From Burkholderiales bacterium (GTDB lineage Bacteria; Pseudomonadota; Gammaproteobacteria; Burkholderiales; Burkholderiaceae_C): 64,000 bases of DNA. The DNA lies in NCBI GenBank assembly GCA_003963115.1, contig RXJQ01000022.1:62001-126000 (forward strand), written 5' to 3'. Below, piece by piece: positions 54,306-63,977 of this stretch. Both the position numbers and the translations under genes were made by a program. Every line of letters begins with the position of its first letter. The stretch's first letter is position 1. The notes below the pieces were generated by a model. It made no database searches, was not told the origin of the DNA, and saw only the letters and a program-made list of their open reading frames with translations.

Positions 54306-55901
54306 TCAGTGCGCGGCCTCGGCGGCCTTCTCAGGGTGCCAGTCGATGCACTGCACCTGATTGCGCCCGGCCTCCTTGGCGGCATACAGGCCCTGGTCGG
54401 CCCGCTCGATCAGCAGCAAGGCATTGTTGGCATTGCCCTTGCCCAATTGCGCCACCCCGAAGCTGGAGGTGATGCGCAGATTGGGCACGGCGTCCACGGC
54501 CGGGCCGGCGGTCTTCTCGATCGCATCGCGGATGCGCTCGGCCACCTCGGCCGCCCCCTGTTCGTCCAGGCCGGGCATGAAGGCGCAGAACTCCTCGCCA
54601 CCGTAACGACACAGCACGTCCTGCGGACGCATGGCCGTCTTGAGGATCTTGGCCACCTGCTGGATCACCAGGTCACCCACGGCATGGCCATAGGTGTCGT
54701 TGAAGGATTTGAACTTGTCGATGTCGGTCATGAAGCAGGTCAGCGGCTCACCCGTCTTCAAGGCATGTTCCAGCATGGGCTCGGCCCGGCTGAAGAAGGC
54801 ACGGCGGTTGAAGCAGCCGGTCATCGGGTCGCAGTTGGCAAGCAATTGCAACTCTTCGTTTTGCTTTTGGATCTTGTCGCGCGACAACTCCAGCTCGACC
54901 ATCGCCGAACGCAGTTGGCTATTGGCCTGGTCAAGCTCGGTCACGTCATCGAGGGTGACAAGGCAACCTCGGGCATTGCCAGCGGCATCTCGCACGGCTG
55001 CGCAGTTGAGCAAGGCGCGCCTGGGCTCACCGCCATCATGGCTGAGGTCGACCTGCACACCCAGGATCGGCTCGGTGGTCTGCAGCGCACGCTCCCATGG
55101 GCGTTGCACGTCTTCTTCCTTCAGGCCCTTGATCAGCCAGTCCAGTTGCGTGATGGCGCGGCCCAGCAGCACACCAGAGGCCTGCGGGTGAAAGCCCCGA
55201 AAGGCCGAATTGGCCATCAGGATCTGGCCATCGATGTCCAGCACCAGCAAGCCTTCGGTCAGCGTGTCGAATGCCACGCGCACCCGCTCCGGGATCGCCT
55301 TGGACGGATCCAGATGTTGCAACACGCGACGCAGGTACAAATAAAACGCCACGAAGCATGCCACGCTCAACGTGCCGATGAGCTGGACAGTGGGGTTCTT
55401 CAACCAACCCGCCAGCGAATTCGGCCAGGGCGAGCGAAAGCCCACTTCGAGCTGCCCCCAGCGTTGCTCGCCTGCATTGAGCGGCACCACCACGGCATTG
55501 ATCGTGGAAGACCCCAGCGGAGGCGCTTCCCAGGTTTGATCATGATGAGGCGAGGCCGCGTACAACACGCCCGATGATCGCCTGACCGCCAGCGAGGTGA
55601 TGTCACCGCTTTGTTCGACCAGCTCGACCAGCACATTCTGCAGATGCGCAGCGTCCTGGGTCTCATTGAGCATGCGGCGAACCTGCACGGCCAGGTGAAC
55701 GGACACCTGCTCGCGCACGTCCATGGTCACGGCGCGCTGGTCGGGCAATATCTTGAGGATCAGGTCCAGGATCATCAACAAGCCTAGCAGCATGGACACC
55801 AGCCCCATGGCAATGCGCACGGTCGGGCTGGGCGCCCAGCGTTTGAGGCCCGTGACAAGCGATGGATTGGCCGAGGCCTTTGCCTGGGTCGCCTGGGCCA
55901 T
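54306..55901 (-). CDS. membrane diguanylate cyclase with periplasmic sensor, PAS and GGDEF
   Basis: 531 residues. TM1 about 29-51 (MGLVSMLLGLLMILDLILKILP), an extracytoplasmic sensor about 52-170, TM2 about 173-192, a PAS domain about 205-330 (LTEGLLVLDIDGQILMANSAFRGFHP), a short coiled coil, then GGDEF with LANCDPMTGCFNRRAFF and the active-site RYGGEEFCAF. GGEEF is a catalytically competent variant. It would make c-di-GMP. It is the last of five leftward genes, 30 bases after the HlyD-type adaptor gene, and so probably linked to the export-like system above it. Confidence 0.94.
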   Translation of the reverse strand: MAQATQAKASANPSLVTGLKRWAPSPTVRIAMGLVSMLLGLLMILDLILKILPDQRAVTMDVREQVSVHLAVQVRRMLNETQDAAHLQNVLVELVEQSGDITSLAVRRSSGVLYAASPHHDQTWEAPPLGSSTINAVVVPLNAGEQRWGQLEVGFRSPWPNSLAGWLKNPTVQLIGTLSVACFVAFYLYLRRVLQHLDPSKAIPERVRVAFDTLTEGLLVLDIDGQILMANSAFRGFHPQASGVLLGRAITQLDWLIKGLKEEDVQRPWERALQTTEPILGVQVDLSHDGGEPRRALLNCAAVRDAAGNARGCLVTLDDVTELDQANSQLRSAMVELELSRDKIQKQNEELQLLANCDPMTGCFNRRAFFSRAEPMLEHALKTGEPLTCFMTDIDKFKSFNDTYGHAVGDLVIQQVAKILKTAMRPQDVLCRYGGEEFCAFMPGLDEQGAAEVAERIRDAIEKTAGPAVDAVPNLRITSSFGVAQLGKGNANNALLLIERADQGLYAAKEAGRNQVQCIDWHPEKAAEAAH

Positions 55902-55931: not shown

Positions 55932-57233
55932 TCAGCGGACGCTGGCCAGACGCATGCCACCCACGGGGGAAGTGGCGAGGTCCACGCCCGGCTTGCGGCG
56001 CGCGTCAGCGATGACAGGCTGATTGCTCATCACTGCGTCATGGCGACCCAGAGAAGGCATCTGCATGGACAGAGCCAGGGTAGTCTGCGCGCGCAACATG
56101 GGTGGCAACAGGGGCTTCTTGCTGCTCATGCGAACAGCCGTGTCGGATGCCGCGATCCAGCGATTGCCAGGCGATGTCTTGCCCAGTTCAGCCATGGCGA
56201 GTTTCAGCGTCGACGACACGAAACGGGCTGGCGACAAGGCATGAGGCAGTGTGCTCACGGGTGCGTTCATCGGCGCCGAAACCGTCACCAAACTGCCACG
56301 CGTGCCCGACACGCCGGGCTGCCAGGCGGGTGCCTGCAAAGGCGCTTGAGGCCAGCGTGTCGGCGCCACCTGGCCCGCAGCCGAAGGCGGTGGCGTCACC
56401 GACACGGGAGCGGTGGTCGAGCCGCTGGTATCGGCAGCGCCGAACGCGATGCGGCAGCGCACACCCGACGGGATGCGATTGCCAGGGTTGGGCATGCTCA
56501 GCCGGACCCGGAAGCTGTTGGAAGCGGGGTCGATCACGCGGTCGACCAGGGTCACCTTGGCCGACAACACGGCGTAATCTGGCAGGTCCGTCTTGACCGT
56601 CGCCAATTGGCCGGACGAGATGGTGCCGAACTGCGCCGCAGGCACGATGGCCTCGATGCGCAGCGGGTCAATGCGGGCCACGCGGACCACAGGCTCGCGC
56701 TCGATGCGTTCACCTTCCGTGCGATAGCGCTCCACCACCAGGCCTGCGAAGGGGCTGCGCACCTCACGCTGGCTCAACTGGGCGTTGGAGAGATGGAATT
56801 CCTTTTGCGCGACGCGCTGTGCTTCACGGGCCTGCTCCACGCGTTGCTGAGCCACGCGGGCCTCGGCTTCGGCCTGGTCCAGCGCCTGGTCGGACACGAA
56901 ATCGCGCTTGACCAGATCGCGTGTGCGTTCGAGCTTGCGCTGCGCCAGGTCACTGGCCGCAATCGCCTGCTGGGTTTCCGCATCGGCCTTGGCCTTGATT
57001 TCCGCCACGGATACCGAGGCCTTCTCGACCTGTGCGGACAGCCTGGCCACGACCTGGCCGGCCGTCACCACATCGCCACGCTCGACCGTCAGCTTCTCGA
57101 TCACGCCTGTCGATTGGCTGCCCACATCCGCCACGCGATCGGGCTCAATCAGGCAACCCAGCACATCCGCATGGCTACAACCCCACCAGGACAGGCTGGT
57201 GGCGGTTATCACGCTCAACGCTTTTTTGTTCAC
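55932..57233 (-). CDS. HlyD-family periplasmic adaptor (membrane-fusion protein) with unusual tail
   Basis: 433 residues from GTG 57233 with AGGAG seven bases upstream; the track start at 57278 adds 15 codons. The N-terminus (VITATSLSWWGC) resembles a lipoprotein signal, but Trp at -3 is non-canonical. RVADVGSQSTGVIEKLTVERGDVVTAGQVVARL is the lipoyl-like half, then a long alpha-hairpin coiled coil and EVRSPFAGLVVERYRTEGERIEREPVVRVARIDPLRIEAIVP. After a Pro/Ala/Thr-rich linker, the last ~120 residues match no adaptor domain I know. It follows the SecA-like gene by 109 bases. Confidence 0.88.
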   Translation of the reverse strand: MNKKALSVITATSLSWWGCSHADVLGCLIEPDRVADVGSQSTGVIEKLTVERGDVVTAGQVVARLSAQVEKASVSVAEIKAKADAETQQAIAASDLAQRKLERTRDLVKRDFVSDQALDQAEAEARVAQQRVEQAREAQRVAQKEFHLSNAQLSQREVRSPFAGLVVERYRTEGERIEREPVVRVARIDPLRIEAIVPAAQFGTISSGQLATVKTDLPDYAVLSAKVTLVDRVIDPASNSFRVRLSMPNPGNRIPSGVRCRIAFGAADTSGSTTAPVSVTPPPSAAGQVAPTRWPQAPLQAPAWQPGVSGTRGSLVTVSAPMNAPVSTLPHALSPARFVSSTLKLAMAELGKTSPGNRWIAASDTAVRMSSKKPLLPPMLRAQTTLALSMQMPSLGRHDAVMSNQPVIADARRKPGVDLATSPVGGMRLASVR

Positions 57234-57342
57234 TTGGATGCTCCTGCTCGACCACGCTGAGCAAGCCTTGACGCCCATCGTGCACTTAAGCGGGATGATG
57301 TCCGCACCTCGGCTAACGCGATCCGTGAAAAAGCCACGCTTG

Positions 57343-59349
57343 TCAGTCCCAGTCTTCTCTTCCGGCCATGGCCAGCTGCCGTGCCATCACCATGTCGGTG
57401 ATCAGCATCTGCCAGCGGTGGCGGCGTGAGCGCGCCTCGGCCTCCAGCTGGACCTTGCGGCAAGCGCGCTCAACCAGCCAGCGCCCGCCGATGCCCGTCT
57501 TGGCCCAACGAACGAGCCGTTTCAGGCCGCCCGAGGTGGCCAATTCCGCCCAGCAGCTGTCTTCCCAGCTCAGGATCGTTTCGCAGCTGCCGGGCATGCC
57601 CTGCCGCGCGCTGCGTCCGATCAGTTGCCGGTCGATGCGCCTGGAGCGGTTCAGGTTGGTGTTGATGACGTGCAGACCGCCGTTGGCCGCGGCTTCCTTG
57701 GACAAGTGCACATCGGTGCCCCGTCCCGCCATGTGGGTGGCCACCGTGATGCAACCCGCTTGTCCAGCCTTGGCGATGACCTCTTGCTCCTGCTGCCCCA
57801 GGGCTTCATCCTGTCGGGCATTGAGCACCTGATGCGGCAACCCATTGACGCTCAAGGCACGCGAGATCGCATCCGAATCGGCCACCGTGTCAGTCCCGAT
57901 CAGCACAGGCCGCCCTTGCTTGACATGCAGACGCGCCTGTTCGACCACACGCGTCCATTTATCAGCGGTGGTGTCCAGCACCTGCGTGCCGAGCACCTGG
58001 CGCCTCGATGGCACGCGCAGCGGAACACGGCACGTTGTCAGACCGTAGACGCGCAACATCTCGGCGCGGTCCTCGAAGATGGTGCCGCTCAGGCCCGCGA
58101 GCCGCAGGTAGCGCGGGAACAAGGACTGGTAGGTGGCCTGCGTGAGCGTTTCGTTCTCGGGCTGCGGCGGCACGCCTTCCTTGATCGCGATCATCTGGTG
58201 CAGGCCGCGCGACCACGACCGCCCCACAGCCAAGCGACCGGTGGTGTCGTCAATGATGTGGATGCCCTCATCACGCACGAGGTAGTGCACGTCCTTGCGA
58301 AACACATGCAGCGCCTGCAAGGCACAGCTCACCTGCTCGTGGCGATAGCGCCGCCAGCGCCAGGCCCCTTGCATGGAGGCGCCCAGTTCGGCCAGCCGGT
58401 TCTGCCCGGCCTCGGTCAAGCGCACCTGCATGCCTTCGTTGCAAACGTAGTCCTGCCCGACCTTGAGCTGACGCGCCAGGAACAAGGCCAGGCGATAGCG
58501 TTGGTCGGCCTCGCGCAGATCGACGGCGCGGGCCAGGATCAAGGGCGTGCAGGCTTCGTCGATCAGGATGCTGTCCACCTCGTCGACCACGGCCATGCAC
58601 AGGCCTCTGAGCACAATGCCATCCTCGTCGCCCACCGTGCGCGCGGCGCGGTCACGCAGGTGATCGAACGCCACCTCCTTGGCCGTCACGTGGACCACAT
58701 CGGCCTGGTAGGCCTGCTTGCGCTCCTGTGGCGTGCTGGTAGCCGTCACGTAGGCCACGCTCAGGCCCAGGGCGCCATAGATGGGTTGCAGTTCTTCTGC
58801 GTCACGACGCGCCAGGTAGTCATTGGCCGTCAGCACGTGAACCGGGATGCCTGCCAGCGCCGCCGTGGCCGATGTCAACAGCACGGTCAGCGTCTTGCCC
58901 TCGCCTGTGGCCATCTCGGCCAGGCGCTGGCCCAACATCCACCAGCCCGCCAGCAATTGAACATCATGCAACTGGAACCCACGCTGTTCGCGTACCAGTT
59001 GCGCAATCAGGCCAAAGCACGCTGCCACCTGATCTGGCGCGAAGCCGCTGCCCAGCCTGACCCGCATGGCCGCCAGATGCCTGGCACGTTCAGCATCAGG
59101 CAAGCCAACCCAGGCTGCCTGAGCCTGTTGCACCAGGGTCAGAAAGCGCTTGTTCTGGCGCGCAGACGGCTGCGGTGCCGCGCGCCACCACGCCTGCAGC
59201 CAGGCGATGAAGGGACTGTGCGAACGCATCGCCGCGTCTTTCAGCGGATAGCCACCATGAACAGGCCCCGGCCGAGGCACAGTCGATCCCGAGCCCATGC
59301 GCTCCGTCCAGAAGCCCGGATCATTGAAATGCGGCGTGAAGGTTTTCAT
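57343..59349 (-). CDS. SecA-like translocase ATPase, shortened at the C-terminus
   Basis: 668 residues, against about 900 in housekeeping SecA. An extra N-terminal ~45 residues precede the motor. NBD1: FQLHDVQLLAGWWMLGQRLAEMATGEGKTLTVLL (Walker A about 146-153), VHVLTANDYLARRDAE, VVDEVDSILIDEACTPLI. A preprotein-binding-like insert: VGQDYVCNEGMQVRLTEAG, DVHYLVRDEGIHIIDDTTGRLAVGRSWSRGLHQMIAIKEGV. NBD2: THMAGRGTDVHL, IDRQLIGRSARQGMPGSCETILSWED. It stops early in the helical scaffold (CRKVQLEAEARSRRHRWQ); the helical wing and the zinc/SecB-binding tail are absent. The start overlaps the upstream stop (ATGA). A specialised export motor is likely. Confidence 0.9.
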   Translation of the reverse strand: MKTFTPHFNDPGFWTERMGSGSTVPRPGPVHGGYPLKDAAMRSHSPFIAWLQAWWRAAPQPSARQNKRFLTLVQQAQAAWVGLPDAERARHLAAMRVRLGSGFAPDQVAACFGLIAQLVREQRGFQLHDVQLLAGWWMLGQRLAEMATGEGKTLTVLLTSATAALAGIPVHVLTANDYLARRDAEELQPIYGALGLSVAYVTATSTPQERKQAYQADVVHVTAKEVAFDHLRDRAARTVGDEDGIVLRGLCMAVVDEVDSILIDEACTPLILARAVDLREADQRYRLALFLARQLKVGQDYVCNEGMQVRLTEAGQNRLAELGASMQGAWRWRRYRHEQVSCALQALHVFRKDVHYLVRDEGIHIIDDTTGRLAVGRSWSRGLHQMIAIKEGVPPQPENETLTQATYQSLFPRYLRLAGLSGTIFEDRAEMLRVYGLTTCRVPLRVPSRRQVLGTQVLDTTADKWTRVVEQARLHVKQGRPVLIGTDTVADSDAISRALSVNGLPHQVLNARQDEALGQQEQEVIAKAGQAGCITVATHMAGRGTDVHLSKEAAANGGLHVINTNLNRSRRIDRQLIGRSARQGMPGSCETILSWEDSCWAELATSGGLKRLVRWAKTGIGGRWLVERACRKVQLEAEARSRRHRWQMLITDMVMARQLAMAGREDWD

Positions 59350-61511
59350 GCACCCCTCACATCGGAGAAATGCTTGAGGAACAGCTGACGCAGGCGCAAG
59401 CCCCAGGTTTGCAGCAAGGGCCTCGGCGTCAACTCCAGCTTGACCTTGGCCAGCCCACCGGCCCGAGGAATGCGCTCGTCGAGCACCACGTCCACCATGA
59501 AGGTGGGTTCCGCGGGCTTGATGCCATCGGTGTCGGTGGGCTCCACCGGCACGGGGCCGCCTTGCTTGTTGCTCAGCGCGGCCGAGGGCAGCTTGTCGAT
59601 GGCGGCGGGTGCCTCACCCGAAGGCTTGCCCTTCAACGCTTTGCCTGGCCGCTCAGACAGCATCACGGTCACACCCTTGAGGCGCTCCTTGACATCTTCG
59701 ATGTCCCGCTGGGAGATGACCGCACGCACAACCGTCGGCACGTCTGACATCACATAGGCCAGCAGTTGCCCCCGGCTGACCTGGCGCTGGTCGATGTCTT
59801 CCTGCCTGGACAGCACGAACTCGCCGGGCTGCACGGCCCTCAGAACCTGTCCCGCCAGATCCTCGTCGACCTTGCCCAGTTGCGCATAGTCGCGGTTGAG
59901 CGCCTGCTGGGCATTGCTGACCTTGAGCGGGTCTATGCCAAAAGCACCGTTGAGTTCGGCACGCGTGCCATCGATCTGCGACATCAGGATGGCACGCTGC
60001 GTCAGCAACACGGGGTCCTTCAGCCTGATCAAAGCCTGCCCCCGCACCACGCGTTGCCCGCTTCGCACCAGCACGGCGTCGACCTCGGCATCGCTGGTCG
60101 CGCGCACCTGCGCGTCGGGTGGCAGCCAGACCACGCCATCGGCCACCACCGAGGCCGGCACCGGCACCAAGGCCAGCATCGCCAAAGCCCCGGCCGCGGC
60201 CACGCCACCGCCCCACAAGGCCTTGGTACGCACCGACTCGAAGCCGGCCGCCATTTGCAGGTTGTTCCCCCAGTTGCGGCAAGGTTGCAGCACCAGGCTC
60301 CACACCATCCAGGCCAGGATACCCATGCCCAGCCAGGAGGCCTTCTCTGCTGCCCAGCTGACCATCACCCAGCTGACCGTCAGCCGGTAGCCCCACGAGG
60401 CCGGCGAGTACAGACGCAGCACCCAGCGCTCCAGCGCATCGTGTTCTGATGGCGCGCGTGGCTCCACAGGCATGCGCAGCAGACGCGCCACCAGCCCTTG
60501 CCACATGCGTTCATTGGCCAGCGTGCTGCGCTGAGCCAGGTTGGGCAGATCCAGCACATCGCAAGCCACGAAATAGCCATCGAACTTCATCAGCGGGTTG
60601 CCATTGAACAGCAGCGTGGAGAGCCCACCCACCGTCATCAAGGTGAAGGCCAGCTCACGCACCAGCCCGTCTTCCACGGCCAGCCACAACCCCAGCCCCA
60701 GTACCGCCAGCGTCATTTCCACCATGATGCCCGCCGATGCCACCAGCCCCCGGTGCGCGCGGCTTGTCAGCCGGTTGGACGCCGAAGCATCCACGTACGG
60801 CATGGGCACGAACATGAAGAAGTTGATGCCGACCTCCGGCACCTCGCAACCAAAGCGCCTGAGCATCAGGGCGTGGCCAAGCTCGTGCACGCCCTTCATC
60901 AGCGGGTACAGGACCCACACCATGGCCAAAAAGCGAGGCGTCAGGAAATGGGCCTGGCCATAGATGCGGATGTCTGGCCAGTTGAACCAGATGCCCAGCA
61001 TGCCGGCCAGCATCAGCACCATCCAGGCCATCAAGGTCTGCACCTTGAAGAGGCCACGAATACGGGGGTACAGCGTTTCCAGCAGGGCCGATGGATTGAA
61101 CAAACCCAGCCTGAAGGACAAAGGATTGAGCCGCGTGCGCTTTTCCTTGCGCTGGCGCTCCTCGCCCACATGCAGGATCTGGCGCACATCCGGTGTGACC
61201 TCGGCCTGCACCAGACCCGCATCGGTCAGCTGTCCCAGAATGCGGATCACATCGTTCTGGCTCGGCGCGGCGTCACCCTGCCGGTTCAGCAGCGACTGCC
61301 AGATCTCGTCCACCGTCAAGCGGCCATCCAGCCGCCCGACCAACTCGAACGCCTGCGCATTGACACGGTGATGTCGCCCCGTGGCCTGGTTGTGCAGCAC
61401 ATACCAGGCTTGCCCGCGGGTGCGCTGCATGCGCACGCTGACATGGGCACGCAGGCGCGGATGCAAGCGCGCGATGCGATACCAGTAGGGGGACAGCAAG
61501 GTCTCTTGCAT
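59346..61511 (-). CDS. PqqD-like / M50 site-2-protease / HlyD-type fusion membrane protein
   Basis: 721 residues. Residues ~1-110 resemble a PqqD-type winged helix (YVLHNQATGRHHRVNAQAFELVGRLDGRLTVDEIWQSL...QNDVIRILGQLTDAGLVQ). Residues ~155-445 form a multi-pass membrane region with the zinc motif HELGH (209-213) and GNPLMKFDGYF (Asp311), the S2P/M50 catalytic set. Residues ~460-720 carry a lipoyl/HlyD-like segment (ASVVADGVVWLPPDAQVRATSDAEVDAVLVRSGQRVVRGQALIRL) and end before a short LRLRQLFLKHF helix. Probably cleaves or handles a membrane substrate and links to the adaptors beside it. Coupled to the SecA-like gene. Confidence 0.88.
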   Translation of the reverse strand: MQETLLSPYWYRIARLHPRLRAHVSVRMQRTRGQAWYVLHNQATGRHHRVNAQAFELVGRLDGRLTVDEIWQSLLNRQGDAAPSQNDVIRILGQLTDAGLVQAEVTPDVRQILHVGEERQRKEKRTRLNPLSFRLGLFNPSALLETLYPRIRGLFKVQTLMAWMVLMLAGMLGIWFNWPDIRIYGQAHFLTPRFLAMVWVLYPLMKGVHELGHALMLRRFGCEVPEVGINFFMFVPMPYVDASASNRLTSRAHRGLVASAGIMVEMTLAVLGLGLWLAVEDGLVRELAFTLMTVGGLSTLLFNGNPLMKFDGYFVACDVLDLPNLAQRSTLANERMWQGLVARLLRMPVEPRAPSEHDALERWVLRLYSPASWGYRLTVSWVMVSWAAEKASWLGMGILAWMVWSLVLQPCRNWGNNLQMAAGFESVRTKALWGGGVAAAGALAMLALVPVPASVVADGVVWLPPDAQVRATSDAEVDAVLVRSGQRVVRGQALIRLKDPVLLTQRAILMSQIDGTRAELNGAFGIDPLKVSNAQQALNRDYAQLGKVDEDLAGQVLRAVQPGEFVLSRQEDIDQRQVSRGQLLAYVMSDVPTVVRAVISQRDIEDVKERLKGVTVMLSERPGKALKGKPSGEAPAAIDKLPSAALSNKQGGPVPVEPTDTDGIKPAEPTFMVDVVLDERIPRAGGLAKVKLELTPRPLLQTWGLRLRQLFLKHFSDVRGA

Positions 61512-61525
61512 GCTTCACCCTGGGC

Positions 61526-63058
61526 TTAGAGGAAGGTCCAGGCCTGCATGCTGAGCCATTGCCAGACACGGTCGGCCGCGCGCCACAGCAGCGGCCGGGG
61601 CGGCATGTCGATGCGTGCCACACCCTGCAAGCCGGGCCGCAAGCCCCTCGCACCCGCGCCGGCCCCGGTGGGGATGGCCTCGATCTCATAGCGCACGCCA
61701 TTGGGCGTCGTCTTGGCCACGGGCGTCACGCGGTTGAGCGTCAAACCAATGGTCTGATCAGGCATGGCTGCCAGACGCAGCCGGGCAATCTGGCCATTGT
61801 TGAGGCTGGCGATGTCGCTTTCGTCCACCTCCAGCACCACGCGCCAATCGAGGCCAGGCGCCAGCGTCAGCAGGTTGTCGCCGCGTTTGACAGGTGCACC
61901 CAATTGCTGGCGCAAATCACCCGCGATGACCACGCCATCAAAAGGCGCGATGATCTTCAAGCGCGCCAACTGCTGCTGGAGCAGCGAGATCTGGGCCTTG
62001 GCCTCGTTGAGCTTGGACTGCGCGATCACCGCCTGTGCGCGGTCACCCCGTGCAAAGGCCTCGGCAAAACCATTCTCGTGCTGTGCCGCCTCGGCCGTAC
62101 GGGCTCGCAGAGCACTTTGCAGGTCGTCATCGGAGAGCTCGGCCAAAACCTGGCCAGCCTGCACCAGGTCACCGGCATGTACATGCGCTTCCCGCAGGAA
62201 GCCGTCCTGGGGGGCACTCATCACACGCTGCACCGCACCCTCCAGCCGCGCCGTGGCCGTCACCTGGTATGGCAAAGGCAGCCCGATGCCAAAGGACATG
62301 ATGCCGAAGAGGGCCAGCACGGACCAACGCAAGGTCCGCTCACGCGGATCCGCCAGCCGCACGCGCAGCGACTCCAGCCAGCCGCGCCCTCGCTCATACC
62401 ATGGCTGCTCCAGTCGGTAGCGCAGGTCCAGCGCCGGCGCCATCAGCCCGGCCAGTTTGGCGACCCAGCGCAACTCGGCCTCGCTGAATCCGCGTGAGCC
62501 CTGCTGTTGATCCAGAGACAGCGGCCTCAGGGCGTCCACATGGCTGGTACGCTCCAGGGTCAAGGTGCCCACCACCACACCCCCCTGAGCCAAGGGCACG
62601 GTCAGCAGGCCGGAAAGCCCCTGCACACGGCACAAGGTCTGGTGGGCCATGGTGATGGCATGGGCTTGCGTGGCCTGCGGCTTGGCAGGCTGGGGCCAGC
62701 TCAACGTGGTCTGCTGGTGTGCGGCTTCCAGCATGGCCTGATGCAGCTCAGGCAGGGCCACACCCTCCTCCAGCAGCACGCCATCAGACAGCACGCGCAG
62801 CCGCAGCGACTGCCCGCTGACCCACCCCAGCGCCACGCGGTGGCACTTCATTTGCTGGTTGAGCAAGGTCACGAAGGCTACAGCCCCCGCTGTCCAGTCC
62901 TTCTCCATCAGAAAAGCCTGCAGGCAGGCCACCGCCGCCGCATCATCTTGCACGGCGACTGCCTGTTGCTGAGACTTGGGCGAGCCCTCGGCCGACGCCC
63001 CTGCCTGGGCCGGCATCGGCTCAAGCATCTTGGGACGAGGGGTAACAATGGTGCTCAA
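61526..63058 (-). CDS. GAF-like / HlyD-family adaptor, membrane-anchored
   Basis: 510 residues starting at TTG 63058 (AGGA upstream); ATG 63028 is an alternative without a ribosome site. Residues ~40-215 form a GAF-like cytoplasmic domain (FVTLLNQQMKCHRVALGWVSGQSLRLRVLSD...LTVPLAQGGVVVGTLTLER). One membrane segment (~253-275, WSVLALFGIMSFGIGLPLPY) is followed by the HlyD part: EGAVQRVMSAPQDGFLREAHVHAGDLVQAGQVLAELSDDDL, a coiled coil, and APFDGVVIAGDLRQQLGAPVKRGDNLLTL. First of the leftward operon, 14 bases before the M50 gene, and divergent from the response regulator. Confidence 0.87.
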   Translation of the reverse strand: MSTIVTPRPKMLEPMPAQAGASAEGSPKSQQQAVAVQDDAAAVACLQAFLMEKDWTAGAVAFVTLLNQQMKCHRVALGWVSGQSLRLRVLSDGVLLEEGVALPELHQAMLEAAHQQTTLSWPQPAKPQATQAHAITMAHQTLCRVQGLSGLLTVPLAQGGVVVGTLTLERTSHVDALRPLSLDQQQGSRGFSEAELRWVAKLAGLMAPALDLRYRLEQPWYERGRGWLESLRVRLADPRERTLRWSVLALFGIMSFGIGLPLPYQVTATARLEGAVQRVMSAPQDGFLREAHVHAGDLVQAGQVLAELSDDDLQSALRARTAEAAQHENGFAEAFARGDRAQAVIAQSKLNEAKAQISLLQQQLARLKIIAPFDGVVIAGDLRQQLGAPVKRGDNLLTLAPGLDWRVVLEVDESDIASLNNGQIARLRLAAMPDQTIGLTLNRVTPVAKTTPNGVRYEIEAIPTGAGAGARGLRPGLQGVARIDMPPRPLLWRAADRVWQWLSMQAWTFL

Positions 63059-63230: not shown

Positions 63231-63977
63231 ATGAAGGTTTTGCTGATCGACGACCACCCCTTGATCCTGGCAGCCTTGCAATCGGTCATCCAGGGTCTGG
63301 GCGACAACGTGACCGTGGCAGCGGCAGACAGCGGCCGGGCTGCCCGTGAAACCCTGCGTCAGGACTCCAGCTACGACCTCGTCCTGCTCGATTTGCACCT
63401 GGGCGACGCCGACGGCTTCGATCTCCTCAGCGAGCTGCGCACCAAATACCCCGCCCTGCCCGTGGTCGTGATTTCCGCTTCCGACCGCACCAGCGACGTC
63501 ATCCGCGCCATCGACATGGGCGCCATGGGCTTCGTGCCCAAGCGCGCCACCAACGAAACCCTCTTCGAGGCGCTCCAGCAGGTGATGTCCGGCGGCGTGT
63601 ACGTCCCGCCCATGAGCATGGGCGCCGACCACCAGCCCCAGCTCAGCGGCTCGCCTCATATCCAGCAGGTGCAGCGCGAGGCCTCGGAAGCCGCCTACCA
63701 GACCATGCCCTCGCTGATGCAGCTGGGCCTCACCCCCCGCCAATCCGATGTGCTCAACCTGCTGCTCAAGGGCCAGCCCAACAAGCTGATCGCGCGCGAA
63801 CTGGGCCTGTCGGTCGAAACCGTCAAGGACCACGTGGCCGCCGTGCTGCGCGCGCTGGGCGTGAGCTCGCGCACCCAGGCGGTGATTGCTGTCAGCCAGA
63901 TCCTGCAAAGGCAAAGTGGCGGGCAAGGTGGCGGCACGCCCAGCGGCTCCACCTACTCCGGCTGGCGCCCGCGCTGA
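63231..63977 (+). CDS. NarL/LuxR-type response regulator
   Basis: 248 residues from ATG 63231 with CAGGAG upstream. Receiver domain: VLLIDDHPLILAAL, phospho-acceptor Asp in DLVLLDLHLGDADG (about residue 52), VISASD and the FVPKRA lysine region. LuxR-type helix-turn-helix: LGLTPRQSDVLNLLLKGQPNKLIARELGLSVETVKDHVAAVLRALGVSSRTQAVI. The C-terminus has a Gly/Ser-rich tail (QSGGQGGGTPSGSTYSG). Its sensor kinase is not in the window. It is divergent from the SecA-like operon and is the likely regulator of it. Confidence 0.94.
   Translation: MKVLLIDDHPLILAALQSVIQGLGDNVTVAAADSGRAARETLRQDSSYDLVLLDLHLGDADGFDLLSELRTKYPALPVVVISASDRTSDVIRAIDMGAMGFVPKRATNETLFEALQQVMSGGVYVPPMSMGADHQPQLSGSPHIQQVQREASEAAYQTMPSLMQLGLTPRQSDVLNLLLKGQPNKLIARELGLSVETVKDHVAAVLRALGVSSRTQAVIAVSQILQRQSGGQGGGTPSGSTYSGWRPR

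Follow-up and report, generated by a model that had tools for sequence, protein, structure and literature searches.

In the stretch of DNA analysed here, 64,000 nucleotides in length and hereafter referred to as the window, an open reading frame on the reverse strand (61526..63058) encodes a protein of 510 amino acids, GAF-HlyD, with a TTG start; the N-terminal sequence MSTI/V is conserved among relatives. After residues 1-36, a tail predicted to be disordered in the full-length model, the protein carries a cytoplasmic GAF domain (residues 37-217; 62408..62950, reverse strand; profiles, AlphaFold2 and PDB matches), a single transmembrane helix at about residues 244-262 (62273..62329, reverse strand; hydrophobicity and model), a periplasmic adaptor of HlyD/MacA type (residues 263-489; 61592..62272, reverse strand; Pfam, Foldseek and model) and a C-terminal helix seen in the model (residues 490-510; 61526..61591, reverse strand), in which W507 is invariant among the homologues. 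A single hydrophobic segment (residues 245-263) is located between the GAF domain and the adaptor. In Pfam the window protein alone matched HlyD_3 (2.4e-18) and HlyD_D23 (1.5e-13), and the adaptor half matched MacA (Foldseek E 1.5e-15) and other adaptors, the barrel-sandwich adaptor fold following one N-terminal membrane helix as in the HlyD/membrane fusion proteins. The original prediction of a GAF-type domain, a single membrane helix and an HlyD adaptor in this reading frame was confirmed by Pfam, AlphaFold2 and PDB matches, and the GAF part of the region preceding the helix stands at residues 37-217, but the length of this region, given there as about 210 residues, is about 243 residues including the disordered tail.

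Since the Foldseek matches of the full-length model were dominated by the HlyD half and were uninformative for the GAF half, the GAF domain was modelled by itself. The AlphaFold2 model of residues 37-227 (pLDDT 90.7, pTM 0.87) gave best 50 PDB matches that were nearly all GAF-domain proteins or phytochromes, including PDE2A (1mc0, the best, E 2.8e-7), Nlh2, PtsP and NifA; the structure prediction proposed earlier as a check thus returned a GAF fold. The GAF/GAF_2 matches of the window protein alone were weak (Pfam 2e-3, 6e-4), under the curated cut-off, and PF01590 GAF was matched by 43 of the 48 pooled homologous N-terminal regions with a best E-value of 1.8e-11. The N-terminal domain of GAF-HlyD has a true GAF fold, and a coiled coil or another non-GAF fold is ruled out by the PF01590 matches, the AlphaFold2 model and the PDB matches.

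GAF-HlyD is the first gene of a co-directional array on the reverse strand, with successive intergenic gaps of 14, -4, 64 and 30 nt down to the fifth gene. The M50 gene, starting 14 nt past the GAF-HlyD stop, encodes a protein of 721 amino acids (59346..61511; ORF, Pfam and motifs) composed of a PqqD domain (residues 37-101; 61209..61403; PF05402 2.8e-6), an M50 metalloprotease with the motifs HELGH (residues 209-213) and NPLMKFDG (residues 305-312), and an HlyD part. It is followed by a short second SecA of 668 amino acids (57343..59349) with DEAD and preprotein cross-linking domains, which retains Walker A GEGKT and DEVD and for which the scaffold/wing and C-terminal zinc domains were not found by Pfam scan, by a second HlyD-family adaptor of 448 amino acids (55932..57278; ORF, Pfam) and by a PAS-GGDEF diguanylate cyclase (54306..55901; Pfam) as the fifth gene. 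A response regulator of NarL/LuxR type (63231..63977, forward strand; Pfam) is encoded upstream of the operon and divergently from it. The catalytic motifs are well kept among the homologues, HExxH in 76/76 M50 proteins and DExD in 63/63 SecA proteins. An HlyB-type ABC transporter, the mark of a classical type I system, was not among the scanned operon genes, nor were genes for TolC or for RND or MFS pumps found in the window operon; no promoter or terminator was detected when the intergenic stretch was scanned for them, and a search of IMG/VR gave no relative of the M50 protein. About 9 kb past the window end, a giant, highly repetitive ORF (MASLIPLLNTAQVAALSTQTIANLTTADWAQFNTAQIVALTSSQIQAI..., over 1370 aa; G000:C71:134994 onward, L006:12995-17104, forward strand), truncated by the contig end, gave no match in an NCBIfam scan.

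This arrangement, which the original prediction did not recognise as standard, is real but not new, because the same locus, with GAF-HlyD as a regular member, was described by Kamneva et al. 2015 (PMC4452313). In the parts of that report dealing with the locus, GAF-HlyD shares an operon with three further genes, for a PqqD/M50/HlyD protein, a short second SecA and an additional HlyD protein; the locus, first described in Planctomycetes and Verrucomicrobia, is reported from these phyla, Proteobacteria and others, and the Methylobacterium extorquens operon META1p2402-2399 is named as having the same order (PMC4452313). The same parts suggest that the ABC ATPase is replaced by SecA and the pore by M50, note that such loci contain no ABC transporter, propose already a regulatory or sensory role for GAF, and call the broader role of the locus "completely unknown" (PMC4452313).

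A second copy of the whole module is located on contig 28 of the same genome, followed by a giant gene whose product starts MSHNGLPLRLRPVVEALEAKLLYSADM, matching NCBIfam NF012209 (LEPR-XLL) with 15.1 bits in the protein scan, just below the cut-off of 17, and with 21 bits, above the cut-off, in the genome search. Because the contig-28 copy precedes this giant, the link between LEPR-XLL proteins and the putative exporter was put to the test. From a total of 80 loci recovered with a GAF-HlyD alignment, the 61 with at least 900 bp after the module were used for adjacency. In 52 of them the LEPR core motif followed the module on the same strand at a distance of 48-936 bp, a count somewhat favourable because the motif was loosened after inspection of these loci; as the control, the motif was matched just once more in 2.74 million six-frame residues. 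Five of the nine loci without the adjacent motif belong to the window's own clade, where GGDEF takes this place, and within the stretch examined no LEPR-XLL neighbour was found for Alisedimentitalea, L135, L145, L165 and L173, the Alisedimentitalea giant not carrying the motif at its annotated start. In a distant sample, all 22 same-contig pairs were no more than 12 kb apart, even on contigs over 4 Mb.

On five alphaproteobacterial plasmids the order differs, the LEPR-XLL giant being located upstream, followed by DUF3467 and then GAF-HlyD; the giant of the Thalassospira plasmid is annotated as LEPR-XLL by NCBI, and a TolC gene ends the Methylosinus and Thalassospira loci (two of the five). The small DUF3467 protein follows the giant in all five motif-bearing plasmid loci (L234, L235, L236, L237 and L243) and is possibly an extra component or chaperone. 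At L243 (Thalassospira marina plasmid), GAF-HlyD, M50, HlyD and TolC are listed; a SecA gene is not listed there and may thus lie elsewhere or be replaced. Several frames make up the broken M50, SecA and HlyD genes at L161 (Polaromonas sp. P2-4), which suggests a copy that is decayed or badly sequenced.

The association was also found at the level of whole genomes. Among 61 relatives, LEPR-XLL above the cut-off was detected in 23 of 26 genomes with GAF-HlyD versus 4 of 35 without it. In a separate, evenly drawn sample of 299 Pseudomonadota genomes, LEPR-XLL was present in 35/35 genomes with full-length M50, 26/51 with a weaker relative only and 7/213 with none. The boundary dividing full-length from weaker M50, at a best E of about 1e-60, was set by eye after the hits were known. 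The difference between the first and last groups is significant (Fisher p 5e-36, by a test that ignores kinship), the association recurs over many families, and several of the seven LEPR-XLL genomes without an M50 relative represent short frames or incomplete genomes. For the proposed dedicated LEPR-XLL exporter, both co-occurrence and adjacency were thus observed. The weaker PqqD-M50-HlyD family is widespread (match over about residues 30-680 at 1e-10 to 1e-49; for instance G051:C1:919264-923204), and half of its genomes carry LEPR-XLL giants, sometimes adjacent. This family is possibly a sister exporter, and since genomes that have only the weaker M50 also often carry LEPR-XLL, machines other than the GAF-HlyD version may serve these proteins as well.

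In the window's own genome, we identified two second SecAs and two LEPR-XLL proteins, together with a longer SecA frame on contig 81 that was taken as the canonical SecA; close relatives are Aquabacterium. No LEPR-XLL gene adjoins the window operon, in which GGDEF occupies the slot used by the giant in sister clades. An unlinked LEPR-XLL gene, cut by the contig end, is located on contig 5. At the N-terminus its product most resembles the LEPR-XLL proteins found in the same clade (up to 61%), next that of L143, and after this the giants adjacent to the sister-clade operon (43%). The response regulator beside the operon is common to the window clade and the LEPR-linked sister clade. From these sequence relations the contig-5 gene probably pairs with the window operon, and it is probably the neighbouring gene, not the cargo, that the operon has lost, because the contig-5 giant resembles those of the clade and the sister clade and the regulator is shared with the latter. 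Divergent from the contig-5 giant is a gene for an 823-aa GGDEF protein (L074; G000:C5:7072-9543, forward strand).

The giants of this genome carry DUF4347 and cadherin domains, and the Thalassospira giant carries RTX repeats. The N-termini of the LEPR-XLL proteins are basic and, in the giants long enough to test, without any hydrophobic segment above 1.6 in a 15-residue window, and for this reason a Sec signal peptide is unlikely. From co-occurrence and adjacency we consider with good confidence that LEPR-XLL giant surface proteins are the cargo served by this cluster, and it is likely that the service is export rather than another one. The cluster would then probably represent a type-I-like system that is powered by SecA, exports LEPR-XLL giants and has GAF-HlyD as an inner-membrane adaptor, the machine being composed of the short SecA ATPase, the PqqD/M50/HlyD membrane protease, the HlyD adaptors and probably a TolC-type outer-membrane channel. 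The basic N-terminal tail with the LEPR-XLL motif would act as a leader and substitute for a Sec signal peptide. The PqqD domain in the M50 protein, proposed as the leader-binding element by analogy to leader recognition in RiPP systems, would bind this leader, which might be trimmed at the M50 site, where the active-site motif is present. The short SecA, with its ATPase motifs, would propel the polypeptide into the conduit; GAF-HlyD, the M50 protein and the second HlyD protein would together bridge the periplasm with their HlyD parts; and GAF at the cytoplasmic mouth might gate or assemble the machine upon binding of a ligand or a partner. That all these elements join in a distinct one-step pathway, in which the LEPR-XLL leader is bound by PqqD of an intramembrane protease, proteins thousands of residues long are pushed by the short SecA through HlyD/TolC, and the GAF domain of the adaptor switches the machine in response to a cytoplasmic signal, is a speculative and rather unlikely proposal in its entirety.

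Co-occurrence alone agrees equally with export, processing, anchoring or release of the giants. The locus might process, anchor or release LEPR-XLL giants once an ordinary type I system of the ABC kind has exported them, as every homologue keeps an intact M50 protease motif and some giants bear the RTX repeats that are typical of substrates of such systems; this appears improbable, however, for an ATPase (SecA), adaptors and, at some loci, TolC are supplied by the locus itself, the annotated neighbourhoods list no gene for an ABC exporter immediately next to the module, and the loci discussed by Kamneva et al. are likewise described as having none (PMC4452313). Far less probable is the export or maturation of a small peptide or metabolite with the LEPR-XLL neighbour being incidental, because the giant adjoins the module in 52/61 loci and is present in 35/35 genomes, even though the M50 protein resembles RiPP metalloproteases, matching the daptide protease model NF041824 at 3.8e-40, below the model cut-off, as well as PqqD models. 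MacA/RND-type adaptors are the best matches of the HlyD part, as expected of an ordinary RND or MFS efflux adaptor with a chance GAF fusion, but this reading is hardly tenable: it is already contradicted by the conserved operon, which has no RND or MFS pump gene, and beta- and alphaproteobacteria alike retain the fusion next to M50, with SecA genes also adjacent in nearly all loci long enough to show them.

The role of GAF within the proposed exporter can be considered separately. Ligand gating by this domain is possible but somewhat doubtful, while a slightly stronger case, still short of convincing, can be made for a structural role in docking or dimerisation, by which GAF would hold the SecA-like ATPase or M50 at the membrane; the cargo link is unaffected by this. 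In favour of docking, conservation is lower in the GAF region than in the HlyD part (mean column identity 0.51 versus 0.70), and E111, Q115 and P208 are the only three invariant GAF residues among 48 homologues; moreover, the cyclic-nucleotide motif NKFDE was found in none of the 48 aligned GAF regions, so that assignment to the cyclic-nucleotide type by this motif was rejected. Against it, the invariant E111 and Q115 are located on the helix after strand 2, a region that forms ligand pockets in other GAF domains; as judged from sequence, the three invariant residues would fit a pocket or a docking face alike. The sole hint of c-di-GMP is the GGDEF gene adjoining the operon in the window's clade. 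Outside this clade, the density of GGDEF genes near the module is 0.021/kb versus roughly 0.009-0.016/kb genome-wide in the genus, a near-background level without clear enrichment, and a general link to c-di-GMP was rejected.

The GAF-HlyD fusion was published earlier, and what is new here is its likely cargo, the LEPR-XLL giants. The genomic link pairs two orphans, a machine without known cargo and a group of giant proteins, opens the role of the second SecA to testing, and suggests an exit route for proteins that reach roughly 15,000 residues and have no Sec signal peptide. The proposed cargo bears the N-terminal motif of LEPR-XLL domain proteins (NCBIfam NF012209); in the open-licence PMC literature, the passages in which the term "LEPR-XLL" occurs name no exporter, and no paper linking DUF4347 with PqqD/HlyD/SecA/M50 was found there. 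The window carries the same four genes in the same order as the locus of Kamneva et al., including the GAF-HlyD fusion, but adds GGDEF as a fifth gene and the divergent response regulator, and the LEPR-XLL giants are proposed here as substrate, whereas the passages on the locus in that report name none (PMC4452313). As in accessory Sec systems (SecA2), a second SecA adjoins the presumed cargo gene, but the short SecA here is without detectable scaffold/wing and C-terminal domains and its partners are HlyD adaptors and an M50 protease. With the type I systems for giant adhesins (HlyB/HlyD/TolC, LapEBC-type), the proposed exporter shares the HlyD adaptors, TolC in some loci and large repeat-rich surface proteins as the proposed cargo, but it differs in that a SecA-type ATPase together with an M50 membrane protein takes the place of an ABC transporter, and in a proposed signal that is N-terminal rather than C-terminal.
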